In this document: positions 4,999 through 44,900 of the stretch, piece by piece
How positions within the stretch are numbered: position 1 is the stretch's first letter
Layout of the letters: each line of letters begins with the position of its first letter
From: Phytomonas francai
Lineage: Eukaryota; Euglenozoa; Kinetoplastea; Trypanosomatida; Trypanosomatidae
DNA: 64,000 nucleotides
Direction of reading: 5' to 3'
NCBI GenBank assembly: GCA_001766655.1
Contig: MJCC01000005.1
Location: forward strand, 352,072-416,071
Notes under the pieces: model-generated
Told to the model about the DNA's origin: nothing
The model's database searches: none
Seen by the model: the letters and a program-made list of their open reading frames with translations, nothing else
Program-made: the position numbers and the translations under genes

Positions 4999-6042
4999 AT
5001 GGCTCTTTCCAGGCACGATGATCGTATGGCATTTAATTGTGAGCAGTACGATCAGCATTCTCTCCTGAAGCGACACTTTGTCCTACTTTATTACTTTCAG
5101 GACGGGTCTGTAGAGATCCTTCAGAAAAACAACAACCAAGTTCACCTCAAGCGCACCAAAGTTCCGACCATACAAACTTCCAATCTTTTCTTAGGAGCCA
5201 CGGTCGACATTTTTGGCGTCCCAACGCGTATAATGGGCTGCGCGGATGAGGTAACGCGGCAGCTTTGTGCGAAACAGAATGAGCGAACCTCCATCCTCAT
5301 CGCGGAGTCCGCCTTTGGGTCGCTTGGACGCTATCTTTCCATTTTGGTCGAGGAGTGTGAGTTTACCGTGGCGAATCTGCAGATGGGGGAGGCCACCGCG
5401 GATATTGCGGAGGCCTACCACCTCCCTGCTGGGCTCCTCGACGAGCGCGTGGTCGTCGTTCAGGCCGTGCGATTGGGCGCACTTCTGAAAGGTACGGAAT
5501 TCGCCGCGCGCGTGGGCGGGACGTACGCCGCCGAGACCCCCGAGCAGGTCGCCCTGTGGGAAAAACTCGCCGTTCTGTGGGGCCAGGCGCCCATCGCCGA
5601 GTTCGACGAGCCCAACTGCGGCGTGGTTTTGCTCAAACCACACGCGATCGCGCGCGGGCACGCCGGGTACATCCTCCAGGAGTTGATCAACCTCGGCCTG
5701 GTTGTGAGCGGACTCACGCAGGTCTTCACAACCTCAAATGCGATGCACGACTTTTTGAGCCCGTACCGTGGCGTCCTGCCCGACATTCCCGGTACGGTGC
5801 AGAGCCTCGTTGGGAACCTGTGGGTCGTGCAGCTTATTGCCGTCGAGAGTCGAATTAATGTGGTCGAAGAGGTTCGAAAGGTATGTGGTCCATACGACAG
5901 CGGGGTTGCGCGGAAGCTGTTTCCGAACACCATTCGCGCGAAATTTGGTGTCGATAATACGCGAAATGCTGTGCACTGCTGCGACTTGGAGGAGGATGGA
6001 ATGGTCTATACAAAGGTTTTCTTTAAGTACTTCGCGGAGTAG
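4999..6042 (+). CDS. NME7: NME7-type nucleoside diphosphate kinase with DM10 domain
   Basis: The 347-residue protein has the NME7 architecture: an N-terminal DM10 domain (about 1-95) and two NDPK modules (about 95-200 and 205-347). The second module keeps the KPHA start and the R-A-x-F-G-x-D-N-T-R-N-A-V-H signature with the phosphate-accepting histidine at His326. The first module has no such histidine and is probably inactive. Human NME7 is similar in length, a component of gamma-tubulin ring complexes and a protein of the axonemal doublet lumen; this is known for the family and inferred here. The ATG at 4999 is the first in frame; Met10 is an alternative. It lies near other cilium genes. 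Confidence 0.92.
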   Translation: MALSRHDDRMAFNCEQYDQHSLLKRHFVLLYYFQDGSVEILQKNNNQVHLKRTKVPTIQTSNLFLGATVDIFGVPTRIMGCADEVTRQLCAKQNERTSILIAESAFGSLGRYLSILVEECEFTVANLQMGEATADIAEAYHLPAGLLDERVVVVQAVRLGALLKGTEFAARVGGTYAAETPEQVALWEKLAVLWGQAPIAEFDEPNCGVVLLKPHAIARGHAGYILQELINLGLVVSGLTQVFTTSNAMHDFLSPYRGVLPDIPGTVQSLVGNLWVVQLIAVESRINVVEEVRKVCGPYDSGVARKLFPNTIRAKFGVDNTRNAVHCCDLEEDGMVYTKVFFKYFAE

Positions 6043-38682: not shown

Positions 38683-39659
38683 TACGCGGTGCCGGCTCGC
38701 GATTCCGTCCTTTGTTCGCTCCTCCTTCGCTTTCCGCCTCCATACCCCCACCCATTCTCGGAGGAGGTGGAGGATATTCCTCGGTTCGGATTTACGAACC
38801 GATCGGTGTCGTTAGTCGCGGTCCGTTGTTTTCGCGCATGAGGAGCACATTGGTTGAACATGCAGGCGGAAACAAACGGATGCCTCTGGAAAGGGGAGGG
38901 GGGAATAAACAAGGAATCCGCATTCTAACCTAATCACGAACTATACACTCTTGCTCCGAGTTTCAAGACAAATTCCGTACTTTGATTTGGATGATCTGCC
39001 GCCATTTTTTGATCTTTTTCCACCCTTTTTCCCATCTTTTTTTTTCAATCGAGTTAAACCTTTATAGGGCTATGTAGGCTTTTCATTCATATATAATAAG
39101 GGCTTTAAGGGTTGAAGCGACTTTAGTGGGTATACGTGTGTACACTGTACTTTGTGTAGGATCTCACCATCATTACCACTAAGAGTACTTTTATGCAAGA
39201 GTTGGAAAAGAATTCAACACGAAGAGCTGTCCGGGCAGCTTTCCGAATCAGTACCCTTTTAAGTAACCTCTATGGTGCCGTCCACACTGCGGCGTCCCAA
39301 AATGGCAATAGTGTTGAACGTATCTTTCAGGTTTCTCAAAGATGTTTGAAGAAAAGACCCTGACGAAGGAAATGATATATAGGGCGCGCATCCTAGGCTT
39401 GCTATTTCTTCCTCTTTCTCAATTACAGTAGTGGAATGGAGGGCCTCATGATGTCTGTAGATAAAGTATCTTGTGTCGGTAAAATCTTCCCTGCGCGTCG
39501 ATGAAGACAATGCCTGGGATGGTTGCTCTTTCCATAGGAAGGAGGGGAGGGGGCTAAGTACACAAGTGCAAAAATAAACACAATTAATGCGGGTAATAGT
39601 GCCTACATTTCACAGGATGGGAAGGTGTAAAGCCCGCGGATCGCGCAGGGCTCTTTGAT

Positions 39660-39669
39660 TTGTCTTACC
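39660..39669. repeat. Target-site duplication, left copy
   Basis: Ten bases, ttgtcttacc, repeated exactly at 39977-39986 directly after the A8 tail of the retroposon. Confidence 0.8.
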
Positions 39670-39743
39670 CCGCGGTATATGCCGGCCACCTCTGCGTGGT
39701 GCTTCGGATTAGTAGCCCGACGAGGGTGAAGCTAAGTGCCTGC
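39670..39743 (+). ncRNA. HDV-like ribozyme fold (Pr77 signature), degenerate
   Basis: The bases can be drawn as the nested double pseudoknot of HDV-like ribozymes. P1 is ccgcggt/gcttcgg (39670-39676 with 39701-39707; four Watson-Crick pairs, two wobbles, one mismatch). P2 is gccggc/gcctgc (39681-39686 with 39738-39743, one mismatch). P3 is ccac/gtgg (39686-39689 with 39696-39699; one base is shared with P2 in this drawing). P4 is ccc/ggg (39716-39718 with 39724-39726). The strand before P2 closes, gaagctaag, holds the cytosine expected to be catalytic. The weak P1 makes activity uncertain. In the family, the signature also works as an internal promoter. Confidence 0.6.
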
Positions 39744-39976
39744 AAGTCACCCGTCCTCGCGGACGACGGCTTCCATTCTTAGATGCTAATACTGGTAGGG
39801 TATTCGACAGGGCCTTTGCTAAGGCTACCCGAGCTGAGTTTCAGACTCAGACTGAACACTGTTAGCGCTTATCTTACCCAAATACTCGCTCGCCGAGTTC
39901 TCTGGCTTTACCAGACACCACTTATGCGCTGTGGTGATATTTGGGCCGTGCGCACGATAAGAATGGGGAAAAAAAA
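39670..39976 (+). mobile_element. Non-autonomous ingi/L1Tc-clade retroposon (NARTc/SIDER-like)
   Basis: A 307-bp element with an A8 tail at 39969-39976, flanked by a perfect 10-bp target-site duplication. Its first 74 bases carry the Pr77 signature of trypanosomatid non-LTR retroposons: gccggccacctc, then gtggtgc, then gaagctaag. The rest of the element has no convincing coding frame and I see no reverse transcriptase, so it must depend on enzymes made elsewhere. The length is near that of NARTc (about 0.26 kb) and below RIME or SIDER (about 0.5 kb). The intact duplication suggests a fairly recent insertion. The signature match is from memory, but the element boundary found independently from the duplication begins exactly where the signature should. 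Confidence 0.75.
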
Positions 39977-39986
39977 TTGTCTTACC
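39977..39986. repeat. Target-site duplication, right copy
   Basis: Exact copy of 39660-39669, directly after the A8 tail. Confidence 0.8.
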
Positions 39987-40844: not shown

Positions 40845-42611
40845 ATGTCGACAAATTCAACACACCCGCATAGGAGATCACGTCTTTTTAGCTATAACTC
40901 TTTAGATCTCCCCCCCGAAATGATGATGAATATGAAACAGCGTTCGGTAAGGACATCTAAATGCGATCTAAAAAGGCAGATTCAAGAAGAATTTCAAGAG
41001 CAACAGAAAATGAAACGGGAGCGGCAGCTGCGTGGCCTAGTCCTTGGGAAAGGGCTTGGTGAGAAAGCTGAAAAAATGATTTTCAAGGGCTTTTACAAGC
41101 CACAAATAGCCCTTGAGAGAAAAGACTCGAAAGATAAACTGGAGGGCTGCAGTTCTACAACATACTCGAATGTTCAGTCTTTTCTACCAGAATTGGTTCC
41201 CAGTAGAGTATTTGAAGACACAATGAGCAAGGCGTTATCACATTCCGATGTTTCCGCGGGTGCATTACGGCATCTGGACTTTCACCTGCATAGCAACGCA
41301 GCCTCTTCGACACATCTCGAAACGACAGCCTCCACACTTACGCAGGAGGAGCATGGCTTGAAAGAGGGCTCTGCTCCTCAGTTGATTTCAAAATTCGAGG
41401 AAGCCTGCATTGAGATTCAGGATTCTATTGACAACTTAGAGTCTGAGCTCAATATGCTATGTGTGCCGCATCCATCTTTTAATGTCTTTTTAGATGTCCT
41501 TTCGCGGGCCTTGGAGGTGGTGGAGAGTGGTGACCTCAAGGAGGAGTTCGTCATGTCAAGCACCGCGCCGGATATGGAGAACTCCGAGATCAAAGGCTTG
41601 TGTGATGCTAAACCGGACATCCACCTTGTTGGCGCCGAGGAAGTGATGGATTATGTTCTGGGAAACATGATCGAGACCGCCTTCGAGCTCGTTCCTGTGA
41701 CCCACACCGCGCAATGGGTCCTGCAGTTCACCATTACCTTCCTGCGCTCGTTGAAGGCCCTCACGAAAGAGGATGCGTACCTGAGGCTCGGGCTTCTGGC
41801 GCGATGTGTGCGCCTGCTTGGGGGCACGGAGCATTTCTCCGCCACGCTCCTCACGTTCACGTTTTTGATCGAAGAGTACAGTGCCTTTTACGAACTAACC
41901 AATTCTGCGGAGAGTAACATTGGAACCCTGTTTAGCCATGTGGAATCGGTGTTAAATAGCATACTCATGGAGTCTTTCCCTCTTCGACGTTCAAAACTAC
42001 AGAGGGTTGATAAGCTTCTCAGGATGAGGTTGCAGCGTGTGATGATGTTTATCAGTGAACTGGACACTAGCTGGAGGCCGACTATTCATTTTCACCTGCG
42101 GTGGAAAGATAGATTCTTGAGTAAGTGCTTTTTTCGCATTCACAATATTATATCGCAATGTTATGTATTCTGTACTCATGGCTTCGTTGATGAGGCATTG
42201 TATTCTAAAATTTACGACTCTCGTGTTACTGGGAGGGTTTTAGGGACCATGGCTTCTCAGCCACAGATTGTGCTCGCACAGCGAGTTGAATACGAGCGCG
42301 TTGTTGAAGGCTTCACGTTCCAGCAAATCGGGGTTTCAGTGAAGAAACACTCCAGCTTGATAGTTGGCTATCAAATTTGCATGGCTGCGCGCTATGTGCT
42401 GCGGCAATCCACGCCAGAGTATGACAAAGCCTGGGGATTTAAAATGAACGAGACATTAAAGGTGCTAGATTCAGATAAAGCAGAACAAATTATTGCTAAA
42501 ATAGTTGCTCGAGCTAAACAAAAGGTTTTGAAATTGAATCGCCAACGTGGGACAACTGTCTTTATAACCCAAATTCCGGATTTAAAATCTTCGAAAAGCG
42601 CTTTAACCTGA
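40845..42611 (+). CDS. Hypothetical alpha-helical protein, 588 aa
   Basis: The N-terminal 90 residues are basic, with a charged helix near 40-70 and a G-K-G-L-G-E-K-A patch. Residues about 185-430 form a mostly helical region with an armadillo-like rhythm of amphipathic helices (T-I-T-F-L-R-S-L, L-G-L-L-A-R-C-V-R-L-L). The C-terminal 150 residues include a V-E-Y-E-R-V-V-E-G-F segment and end basic. There is no membrane segment and no domain I recognise. The ATG at 40845 is the first in frame after an A-rich stretch. It follows the long intergenic region with the retroposon. Confidence 0.72.
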   Translation: MSTNSTHPHRRSRLFSYNSLDLPPEMMMNMKQRSVRTSKCDLKRQIQEEFQEQQKMKRERQLRGLVLGKGLGEKAEKMIFKGFYKPQIALERKDSKDKLEGCSSTTYSNVQSFLPELVPSRVFEDTMSKALSHSDVSAGALRHLDFHLHSNAASSTHLETTASTLTQEEHGLKEGSAPQLISKFEEACIEIQDSIDNLESELNMLCVPHPSFNVFLDVLSRALEVVESGDLKEEFVMSSTAPDMENSEIKGLCDAKPDIHLVGAEEVMDYVLGNMIETAFELVPVTHTAQWVLQFTITFLRSLKALTKEDAYLRLGLLARCVRLLGGTEHFSATLLTFTFLIEEYSAFYELTNSAESNIGTLFSHVESVLNSILMESFPLRRSKLQRVDKLLRMRLQRVMMFISELDTSWRPTIHFHLRWKDRFLSKCFFRIHNIISQCYVFCTHGFVDEALYSKIYDSRVTGRVLGTMASQPQIVLAQRVEYERVVEGFTFQQIGVSVKKHSSLIVGYQICMAARYVLRQSTPEYDKAWGFKMNETLKVLDSDKAEQIIAKIVARAKQKVLKLNRQRGTTVFITQIPDLKSSKSALT

Positions 42612-43094
42612 AAGGAAGCTTGAGATAATCAGCCCTGATATGTGAAAAGTGGGAACGATGTCTTGCGAAACGCACTGGCGAATGCGATCCAATACAGTAG
42701 TGTTACTTAAGGAGAAATATTCATTCATTTTTTTTTAAATTAGCTGTACGCTCTACACAGCACACAAATGTAACTTGATATTTCATTTGAACATTTACTT
42801 CTGCTTTCCCTTGCAATTTCTGTTGTATTCTGTCAGAATTGATGTACTGCATATAGAATGTGCGTGTACGCCTCGATAGAATGAAGTTCCAGGAGATCTG
42901 CGATACATATTTCCCTTCCCTTCATTTATTCTTTTTCTACCTTTATATATATATATATATATGTATGTATACGCCGTGCTAATGATTTATTAAGCTTCAT
43001 CAAAAGCGCATTGCACACACAAAAAGGTACAGGGGGAAAGAAGGGTACTTCTGAAGGACGACACATTGGCTTTCTTGGCGATAGATTTTCAAAA
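42612..43094. other. Intergenic with TA repeat
   Basis: 483 bases; a T run lies near 42729 and a TA repeat at about 42944-42962, with pyrimidine-rich DNA before it. The upstream open frame of the next gene starts only with TTG. Confidence 0.6.
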
Positions 43095-44900
43095 ATGAGC
43101 TTATGTATAAAGAATCCCCCGCAATGCGTGTATATACAATCGCTCAATAATGAGCGAAGGTACAAACTTCTACTTCGAGGAGATACTTGCCTATTAGGCA
43201 CTGAGATGATAAAACAATACATAGAGAAATTGATCGGGGTCCCCGTAGCACAGCAGAAACTCACTTTCAACGGGCGCGAATTAGAAGATGGTTCGAGCGC
43301 AGATAGCATTGGGCTCTACAATAACGCTGTCCTTCACCTTCAGCACACCGATCTTCCTGTGTGCGACCTTTCAACTGACCCTCCGAATCAACGACCGGCT
43401 TCACCGGAGGAAAACGCAAGTCCAGAAGATAGAGCTTCTAGATCCCCCATAACCCCTTTACACTCGTCGAGCAGCCTCAAGACGATCACAACGAGGGGGT
43501 TGCCGCGTAGGTCCCCCCCTGGCTCGGAAGGCGTAGCGGAATACCAACTTCTTCAAAGGCGCGAGTGGGAAGCTAAACCGGGTGCCTACTTAGATCCCTA
43601 TTTTGAAGGCCATAAGGCTTCAAAGAAAACACGTGGGAGTACCCATGCCGGTCGAAGCTTCATGAAGAGTCTCCTCCCGACGCAATTTACCACGGATAGA
43701 ACCCCTTTTCATTCCGCGTCCAGTCATTTTAGACGGGATAACGCTACGGAGACGATGCATGACGAATCCACGACGGAAATCAGCCCAGAGGTACTCGGGA
43801 GTATGGGGGAGCGTAATGGAAATCCCTCCCTCTGTGAGGCGTCTGAAGACGCGCCATCGCTGCTGGAGGGTAGCCGAAGCATACAGCGGCAGAGCCTGCC
43901 AGGGAAAACGGAAAGCATCGGGAGGTTTCTCACCAGTTCAAAGGCCCCGGATGTATATCGAGGCCAGCGGGGTACGCTATCGAGGAGGGCTGCTAGCCAA
44001 AAGCACAGTTTACTACTTACCGATCGATATCTTCCTGCACTGAAGGCTGAAAACCAGGCCTTAACACGCGAAAATGAGCTTCTACAGGAAAAGCTGCTAG
44101 AGGCTGAGAGACGTGCCGCCAACGCTACGTCGGACTGGAAGCTGCAAGAGGAGGTTTTAGCGCTCAAAGAGGCTTTGGAGACCGCGGAGAAGGAAAAGCA
44201 AAAGGCTGTAGATGAGGCTCAAGCAATATGGCAGCATAAAGAAGCGGAGCTCATTGCGGAACTAGACCTCCTGAGAAAAGAGCTCATGCAGACCCGTGCG
44301 TTGAGGGAAGACCTACAAGACGAGCGACAAGGACGAATTACCTCACTTCAGTCTCAGATGCAGACTCAGAAAAATGAAATTCGCGCAAGGGAGGAAACAA
44401 TTCGTCAACTCCACTTTACACTGGCGGAGTTGCAAAGTAAACAGGATCCACGTGAGGTTTCTCCTTTTCTGGAAAAGTCCCTTGATGAGCTCGTGCAGGG
44501 TTTGCTGGAACGCATGTCAAGGGTGTTAGACGCCCCGCAGATTAAACTCGATGACAAAGGCACCTGTGCGATTAACATATCAGACGAGATGAACATATTT
44601 GTAACCCTAGACAGCGAATCCGAGCGACTGCACGTGTACACGATGCTGTTAAATGAACTTCCTGACTCTGAGGTGGTTCGCCTACGGCTCTATGAGAACT
44701 TATTAGAAGGTGCGCTTTTGGGAAGAAGCACGGCTGGGGGCACAATCAGCATCAGCAAAGAAGAAGGCATAGTGCTTCTGAGTATCTCGGTAGATGTTCG
44801 ATACAGCGATGAGGGCGCGTTAGCGCATCTCGTGTGTCCTTTCCTTGAATTAGTTAGACGTTGGCAGATAGACATTCAGAGATTACTGTCAATGCCCTGA
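43095..44900 (+). CDS. Ubiquitin-like, coiled-coil and CesT-like (type III chaperone fold) protein
   Basis: The protein is 601 residues from the ATG at 43095. Residues about 12-85 form a ubiquitin-like domain, with the I-K-x-x-I-E-K-L-x-G-V-P helix and the L-x-F-N-G-R-E-L-E-D turn. A Ser/Pro-rich linker (about 90-310) and a coiled coil (about 313-455) follow. About 456-601 matches the CesT/Tir-chaperone pattern: a helix, then D-D-K-G-T-C-A-I-N-I, strands, L-L-E-G-A-L-L-G, and a final helix with L-x-x-L-V-R-R-W. In bacteria this fold binds type III effectors as a dimer; kinetoplastids also carry such domains, with roles not known to me. The coiled coil may drive dimerisation. Confidence 0.7.
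   Translation: MSLCIKNPPQCVYIQSLNNERRYKLLLRGDTCLLGTEMIKQYIEKLIGVPVAQQKLTFNGRELEDGSSADSIGLYNNAVLHLQHTDLPVCDLSTDPPNQRPASPEENASPEDRASRSPITPLHSSSSLKTITTRGLPRRSPPGSEGVAEYQLLQRREWEAKPGAYLDPYFEGHKASKKTRGSTHAGRSFMKSLLPTQFTTDRTPFHSASSHFRRDNATETMHDESTTEISPEVLGSMGERNGNPSLCEASEDAPSLLEGSRSIQRQSLPGKTESIGRFLTSSKAPDVYRGQRGTLSRRAASQKHSLLLTDRYLPALKAENQALTRENELLQEKLLEAERRAANATSDWKLQEEVLALKEALETAEKEKQKAVDEAQAIWQHKEAELIAELDLLRKELMQTRALREDLQDERQGRITSLQSQMQTQKNEIRAREETIRQLHFTLAELQSKQDPREVSPFLEKSLDELVQGLLERMSRVLDAPQIKLDDKGTCAINISDEMNIFVTLDSESERLHVYTMLLNELPDSEVVRLRLYENLLEGALLGRSTAGGTISISKEEGIVLLSISVDVRYSDEGALAHLVCPFLELVRRWQIDIQRLLSMP

Follow-up and report, generated by a model that had tools for sequence, protein, structure and literature searches.

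A short L1Tc/ingi-type retroposon in Phytomonas francai, in all likelihood an internal-deletion product of a resident LINE

RIME and NARTc are short non-coding retroposons that carry both ends of a LINE, an A-tail and a duplication of about 12 bp, and that share the target preference of that LINE. In T. brucei and T. cruzi they are the partners of ingi and L1Tc, respectively (PMC12278014, PMC3820030), and for the ingi clade 12-bp duplications, upstream motifs specific to subclades and a tandem arrangement of LINE, duplication and LINE have been described (PMC3820030). Pr77-type folds self-cleave in vitro for L1Tc, L1Tco and TvSIDER1 (PMC4035085), and L1Tc has a CGTG downstream promoter element at +25 to +28 (PMC4748587). 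The Leishmania elements SIDER1 and SIDER2 are likewise short members of the ingi clade with a Pr77-type signature (PMC4035085, PMC5509151), which is present in SIDER2 as two tandem stretches of 79 nt (PMC4035085).

Within Phytomonas itself, PMC3916237 reports 41 PhDIRE and 7 PhSIDER from EM1 and two PhDIREs from Hart1, all of them non-functional; the short forms are thought to be deletion products of a degenerate ingi-type LINE, and an upstream motif was used when placing PhDIRE in ingi1. INGI elements were found in all 57 trypanosomatid lineages studied, with P. francai among the genomes (PMC12278014). In the open-licence papers searched PhSIDER and PhDIRE are named only in PMC3916237, and Phytomonas, Pr77 and a ribozyme appear together only in PMC12278014.

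The element described here lies in a stretch of 64,000 nucleotides from the P. francai genome, which we call the window. It occupies 39670-39976 (307 bp), and 39660-39986 reads TTGTCTTACC-element-TTGTCTTACC; its features are collected in Table 1. A sequence-only reading of the window had claimed these coordinates, a perfect 10-bp duplication and an A8 tail, and all three can be read directly from the sequence. The joint between the 5' and 3' modules is a GAYGTT-like microhomology, as read from the alignment of copies. Only one frame of at least 100 codons overlaps the element; it runs from stop to stop over 159 codons of the other strand. The DNA on either flank matches nowhere else in the genome.

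Table 1. Features of the element and its immediate surroundings (window positions)
Feature	Position	Strand	Basis or remark
Candidate endonuclease target pattern	39639..39658	+	-31 to -12; 8 of 11 fixed places match (flank read by eye)
Target-site duplication, left copy, TTGTCTTACC	39660..39669	+	sequence, duplication scoring
5' module, first ~268 nt	39670..39937	+	84-87% identical to five long LINE copies
Candidate P1, 5' strand, CCGCGGU	39670..39676	+	faces 39701-39707; 92.9% of cells paired
Candidate P3 hairpin	39687..39698	+	element 18-20 with 27-29
CGTG inside candidate P3	39695-39698	+	element 26-29
Candidate P1, 3' strand	39701..39707	+	alignment; element 32-38
Candidate P4 hairpin	39715..39727	+	element 46-49 with 55-58; 93.7% of cells paired
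GAAGCTAAG, invariant A-G-C	39728..39736	+	alignment columns
Hairpin downstream of the Pr77-like region, AAGUC..GACUU with inner GC stem	39744..39772	+	alignment, element 75-104
3' module, ~31 nt directly preceding the tail	39938..39968	+	common to LINE 3' end
A8 tail	39969..39976	+	sequence
Target-site duplication, right copy, TTGTCTTACC	39977..39986	+	sequence, duplication scoring

Just downstream, at 40845-42608, a protein of 588 aa is encoded whose best matches come from Phytomonas sp. EM1 and Hart1 (64-65% identity), followed by those from Leishmania tarentolae (37%) and Leptomonas seymouri (34%), six hits in all; the host is accordingly a Phytomonas distinct from both EM1 and Hart1. A further frame of 629 aa at 43011-44900 (+) matches the Pfam ubiquitin family near its start and the CesT chaperone family at its end.

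The element is clearly not alone in its genome. A BLASTN search of the whole 17.4 Mb (37 contigs, the window being on C33; E<=1e-3) found 33 matching places, window included, the nearest other copy being 93% identical over 313 bp. Seventeen of these are short and have both ends, if L021 is included, a copy that departs from the others in its first four bases; the remaining places are long copies, truncated pieces and fragments. Among the 17, the copy closest to that of the window is 94.2% identical (K2P 0.061). A subfamily of nine copies, drawn by the letters of the downstream hairpin, has a mean K2P of 0.099, and seven of the nine have clear duplications.

Some of the other places deserve a separate remark. 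On C32, at about 1226-1228 kb (locus L057, 5498-5796 and 6866-7164), two short elements form an inverted pair about 1.1 kb apart and 99% identical; their likeness is confined to the element, the flanks do not match, and the pair looks like gene conversion or a very recent insertion. A 5'-truncated copy on C30 (L052, C30:455000-462500, at 807-1067) has the 5' region (to ~272) running straight into a longer part of the LINE 3' end (5189-5276) and is a second, independent short-element junction. As to subtelomeric clustering, which we considered and rejected, four limits were set on the distance from a contig end: 5 kb takes in 2 of the 33 places (p 0.16), 10 kb takes in 3 (p 0.16), 20 kb takes in 7 (p 0.019) and 30 kb takes in 8 (p 0.052).

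Duplications were judged by one scoring applied equally to true and swapped flanks of the 21 two-ended copies (17 short, 4 long); the other 12 of the 33 places have an end that is missing or undetermined, or stand in tandem. A score of at least 8 is reached by 12 of the 21 copies (10 of 17 short, 2 of 4 long) and by 3 of the 420 swapped pairs (0.7%), and a score of at least 10 by 6 of the 21 and by none of the 420. The window copy scores 10, and since no swapped pair gets there under the same scoring, its 10-bp duplication is beyond chance. The twelve clear duplications are 9-13 bp long. In nine of the 21 copies the scoring found no duplication, and the most complete long copy, L046, is among them.

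The upstream flanks tell of a target preference common to the copies. The L1Tc/ingi endonuclease has the target pattern GAxxAxGAxxxxxTxTATGA, followed by 11 nt. Scored on the 28 upstream flanks available (28 of 33 places, short and long pooled; left out were four without a 5' end and one tandem copy), this pattern matches on average 5.68 of its 11 fixed places at -31, versus a mean of 3.05 (sd 0.30) over 681 offsets, among which -31 ranks first; the column counts of the flanks had been inspected before this scoring. A composition test that uses no pattern gives 6.37 bits in the last 32 columns versus 2.53 (sd 0.38) for 2000 random re-cuts, none of which reaches the observed value. Because PMC3820030 gives motifs that are specific to subclades, and prints for ingi6 an upstream signature that differs from the pattern used here, we claim a preference like that of the clade, not of a subclade.

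The same genome contains a LINE with the ends of the element. Seven places match the reverse transcriptase family RVT_1. In five cases the match sits a little way into a copy that starts with the 5' end of the element, and these five long copies also contain APE matches. The longest, L046 on C11, measures about 5276 bp from the common 5' end to the common 3' end, and its APE, RT and weak RNase H matches stand in separate, interrupted frames. The RNase H match has an E-value of 0.0012, below the curated cut-off; a genome-wide search with this family found one gene only, on C11 and far from the LINE. The 3' end of the element recurs at the 3' ends of L046, L047 and L048 and at that of the element upstream of L050 (permissive search at E<=1; match lengths 23-47 nt, E-values 0.0002-0.10), and the 3' end of L049 is similar by eye.

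Four of the long copies (L047, L048, L049 and L050) lack the same ~1149 bp (element positions 1442-2590), with which the start of the RT is gone, and L047 and L048 lack a further ~1444 bp downstream of this first deletion. The duplications of L047 and L048 differ from each other, thus the doubly deleted form of 2.75 kb has itself moved. The deletions in the long copies end at the short repeats CAGCAAAGC and CGAACC, and all three junctions examined, those of the LINE deletions and that of the short element, sit at short repeats. L049 and L050 have the same 5' junction and differ at only 0.7% of positions over 3.2 kb (99.3% identity); they are therefore related loci, rather than independent insertions. 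At L050 the 3' end of another element is followed by TCCGATTCA and then by the 5' end of L050 itself.

Two observations touch on other long places. L046 and L051 have a common motif, GAGACG...AACGCGATCCC, just upstream of the 5' end, the copies themselves being only ~71% alike; the motif is either a common target repeat or an extended 5' end. L055 (C32:519000-528000) and L056 (C32:736000-745000) match RVT_1 and have two TAA stops each. The short element was not found in these two loci, which are possibly a second, older type of retroelement duplicated on one contig.

The RT frame of L046 is 61% identical to a Phytomonas EM1 protein (44% of the query covered) and 44-48% identical to proteins of T. 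cruzi, T. congolense and T. theileri, among the best 120 of 2913 matches (7982 candidates scored). A tree was made of 32 rows, namely L046, 8 trypanosomatid rows picked among the 16 best hits, and the 23 other rows that ranked next; in it L046 and the 8 trypanosomatid rows are set apart from the 23 others with 100/100 support. On this comparison of sequences the RT of the resident LINE groups with trypanosomatid L1Tc/L1Tco-type proteins, a clade call that relies on the source names L1Tco and L1Tc in a tree with no row labelled ingi or CRE and no other trypanosomatid RT clade. The pairing of L046 with the EM1 protein has 85/58, the EM1 row covering 42% of the columns.

We are therefore highly confident that the element is a short, non-autonomous trypanosomatid retroposon of the L1Tc/ingi type and an internal-deletion product of the resident ~5.3-kb LINE. 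Because of the ends shared with the LINE, the RT kinship, the duplications and the target pattern at -31, it is a deletion derivative of the RIME/NARTc/SIDER type, moved in trans. The ingi/L1Tc-type non-autonomous insertion that the sequence-only reading had proposed is thus borne out by the number of copies, by a resident LINE whose ends match, by RT kinship and by duplications. We cannot say the same of its suggestion that the body, which it did not recognise, may be a new family of about 0.3 kb: the body consists of the first ~268 and the last ~31-40 nt of the resident LINE. Since it can be recognised, and since the PhSIDER kind is already named in Phytomonas EM1, little is left of this claim.

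As for how it came about, an internal deletion brought the first ~268 nt of the LINE together with the final ~31-40 nt, the two meeting at a short motif that is repeated, and left in place the Pr77-like 5' end (an internal promoter and possibly a ribozyme) and the A-tailed 3' end. RNA of the element would be made from the internal promoter, its 5' end at base 1 arising by initiation there, by self-cleavage of read-through transcripts, or by both. The endonuclease and reverse transcriptase of the LINE would then take this RNA, the genome would be nicked after a TATGA-like motif, the A-tail would prime reverse transcription, and the insertion would leave a duplication of 9-13 bp. Among the RT places in the genome we found no intact LINE, all five long copies being damaged, and it is for this reason that we infer the moving machinery from damaged relatives. 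Given that the nearest short copy is 94.2% identical and that the five long copies are all damaged, the window copy is probably a relic now, and the sequences suggest that activity lies in the past of the lineage, not today.

A bolder version can be imagined, in which retroposition went on until recently, leaving perfect duplications and a ladder of forms of about 5.3, 4.2, 2.75 and 0.3 kb, of which at least those of 2.75 and 0.3 kb moved in trans, and in which the 5' end common to them would fold as a variant of the HDV-like ribozyme, with an extended P4 in competition with the catalytic strand and a conserved downstream hairpin serving as a switch. In our opinion this version, taken as a whole, is unlikely.

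What the 5' end of this deletion derivative does is a question apart, since a working ribozyme would add to the explanation given above and not replace it. The Pr77-like signature that had been claimed for it stands: the core (GCCGGCCACCTC..CGTGGTGC) is intact in the window copy, with 0 mismatches at element positions 12-33, and 38 sites in the genome match it with at most 3 mismatches versus 3 for a reversed-pattern control, several of the 3-mismatch sites looking like chance. Two matches with 2 mismatches lie outside the 33 places (C30:246776-246797 and C36:261075-261096) and are probably more diverged ingi-type remnants.

The claims regarding an HDV-like fold fared less evenly. The boundary was said to coincide with the first base of P1, and in most copies P1 can indeed be formed (CCGCGGU at 1-7, GCCGCGG at 32-38), along with the P3 stem and the P4 stem ACCC/GGGU, but the window copy mispairs within P1. 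Likewise, from the drawing of P1 to P4 the helices P3 and P4 hold, whereas P2 of the window copy needs a mismatch and its 5' end is no better than shuffles (z +0.21 for 67 nt, z +0.78 for 106 nt). Of the check proposed with covariance models, no hit came: there is no Rfam match at gathering level across the window nor at E<=10 around the element, and a genome-wide search with RF00094 lists no copy of the element, only one weak match elsewhere (86 of 689 candidates scored). This miss says little, because the Rfam HDV model may fail to recognise even proven L1Tc-type ribozymes.

It is quite possible, though we would put it a little short of an even prospect, that in the better-preserved copies the 5' end works as an HDV-like ribozyme and cleaves itself, which would free an RNA beginning at base 1 from polycistronic transcripts of the host; for the window copy, with its mispaired P1, we rate activity lower. 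Besides the in-vitro cleavage of relatives (PMC4035085), this idea can draw on the structure alignment (26 rows, 24 distinct; left out were four places without a 5' end, plus L011, L021 and L027, in which the first 1-4 bases differ). Across the 24 distinct rows P1, P3 and P4 stand in HDV-like order with base 1 at the boundary and 92-94% of cells paired, P2 (11-17 with 69-75) can be written with one mismatch at 90.9%, and the P1-P2-P3-P4 structure pairs in 92.3% of cells versus 27-49% when slid. The duplication ends exactly at base 1 in 10 of the 12 clear copies and one base away in the other 2. The 5' end of L009 is more stable than shuffles (z -2.53 for 67 nt, z -1.94 for 105 nt), as is that of L047 taken with the hairpin (109 nt, z -4.52), and L046 (67 nt, z -1.38) is not clearly beyond them. 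GAAGCTAAG we take to be a candidate J4/2 within an HDV-like fold, with 39732 as the candidate for the catalytic C.

The same alignment also speaks against the ribozyme. No pair in P1, P2, P3 or P4 shows a two-sided change, as against 0-5 pairs in slid versions at this low diversity, and P4 changes on one side only; partners that were shuffled pair as well as the true ones, and a longer version of P1 and P2 gives the same picture. A canonical P1.1 was not found in the 5' ends of the copies, only a non-canonical C-U-G/U-A-G pairing can be drawn in its place, and a competing pairing, UUAGU/GCUAA, present in 95% of cells, would bury the catalytic-C candidate. Other structures were considered and set aside: of several rival P2 pairings the first (11-15 with 96-100) clashes with the downstream hairpin, and RNAalifold folds the 5' end differently and weakly, at -12.5 kcal/mol with a covariation term of -0.3. 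The downstream hairpin itself has two helices with 92.9% and 90.8% of cells paired, and one of its pairs has 8 two-sided changes (C-G to U-A); these eight track the division between the two subfamilies and could go back to one event. Compared by description with the L1Tc/ingi ribozymes of PMC4035085, the 5' end here agrees in the position of base 1 and in the arrangement of P1, P3 and P4, and differs in its non-canonical P1.1 and P2 and in matching no covariance model. PMC4035085 reports cleavage by folds of this type in several species and none in others that "a priori show adequate folding", therefore sequence alone cannot decide on activity.

It is a serious possibility as well, if not one we would call probable, that the 5' end is an internal promoter only, made of Pr77 and the CGTG element, and that its helices merely follow from the conservation of promoter letters. 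The CGTG at 26-29 of the window copy is one base off its place in L1Tc (PMC4748587), and letters that are conserved without covariation fit this view. Yet both strands of P1 are kept across a stretch of 38 nt, and cleavage has been demonstrated in relatives; besides, the roles of promoter and ribozyme do not exclude each other.

By comparison, we consider it very improbable that the copies are domesticated regulatory sequences of UTRs, as SIDER2 is in Leishmania. It is true that, among the 15 of the 17 short copies that were examined, not one sits within a frame of more than 159 codons, but the neighbouring frames are on the same strand for some copies and on the opposite strand for others (15 loci, flanks of 1-3 kb), and we found neither a SIDER-like sense bias toward neighbouring genes nor a sign of 3'-UTR domestication in these loci. 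The copy number is also low, tens as compared with ~2000 in Leishmania (PMC3916237), and the window element has one signature, not two in tandem as in SIDER2. Finally, we give practically no credence to a host repeat that resembles Pr77 by chance and was spread by segmental duplication, for although the inverted pair on C32 is 99% identical and L049 and L050 have a common 5' junction, that pair is alike in the element only, the window flanks have no second match, and the duplications are specific to each copy, which already refutes the idea for the 12 copies with duplications of their own.

The deletion derivative of the resident LINE has, then, several described counterparts. With RIME and NARTc it has in common both LINE ends, the A-tail, the duplication, a target preference common to short and long forms and, at L050, the tandem arrangement; it differs from them in keeping ~268 nt of the 5' end and only ~31-40 nt of the 3' end, and in duplications of 9-13 bp rather than a strict 12. 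With Leishmania SIDER1 and SIDER2 it has in common its shortness, the Pr77-type signature and the ingi clade (PMC4035085, PMC5509151). The closest counterparts are PhSIDER and PhDIRE of the same genus (PMC3916237), the former compared here by description; like PhSIDER, the element is short and apparently derived by deletion from a degenerate ingi-type LINE, and the RT of that LINE is the one 61% identical to an EM1 protein. Unlike what is reported for EM1, short copies here outnumber long ones (17 two-ended versus five close long copies, the counting methods being different), and, set against EM1 and Hart1, clear duplications are found here in 12 of 21 copies.

The kind of element is thus already known, and what is new is this element, in a genome whose balance of short and long forms is unlike that reported for EM1. 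As a type it is unremarkable, but a good many of its copies are well preserved. In our opinion, 17 two-ended short copies, 10 of them with clear duplications, and a common target preference suggest that the fate of ingi-type elements varies within Phytomonas, and the copies offer a modest collection of natural variants on which cleavage by the Pr77 fold can be probed.
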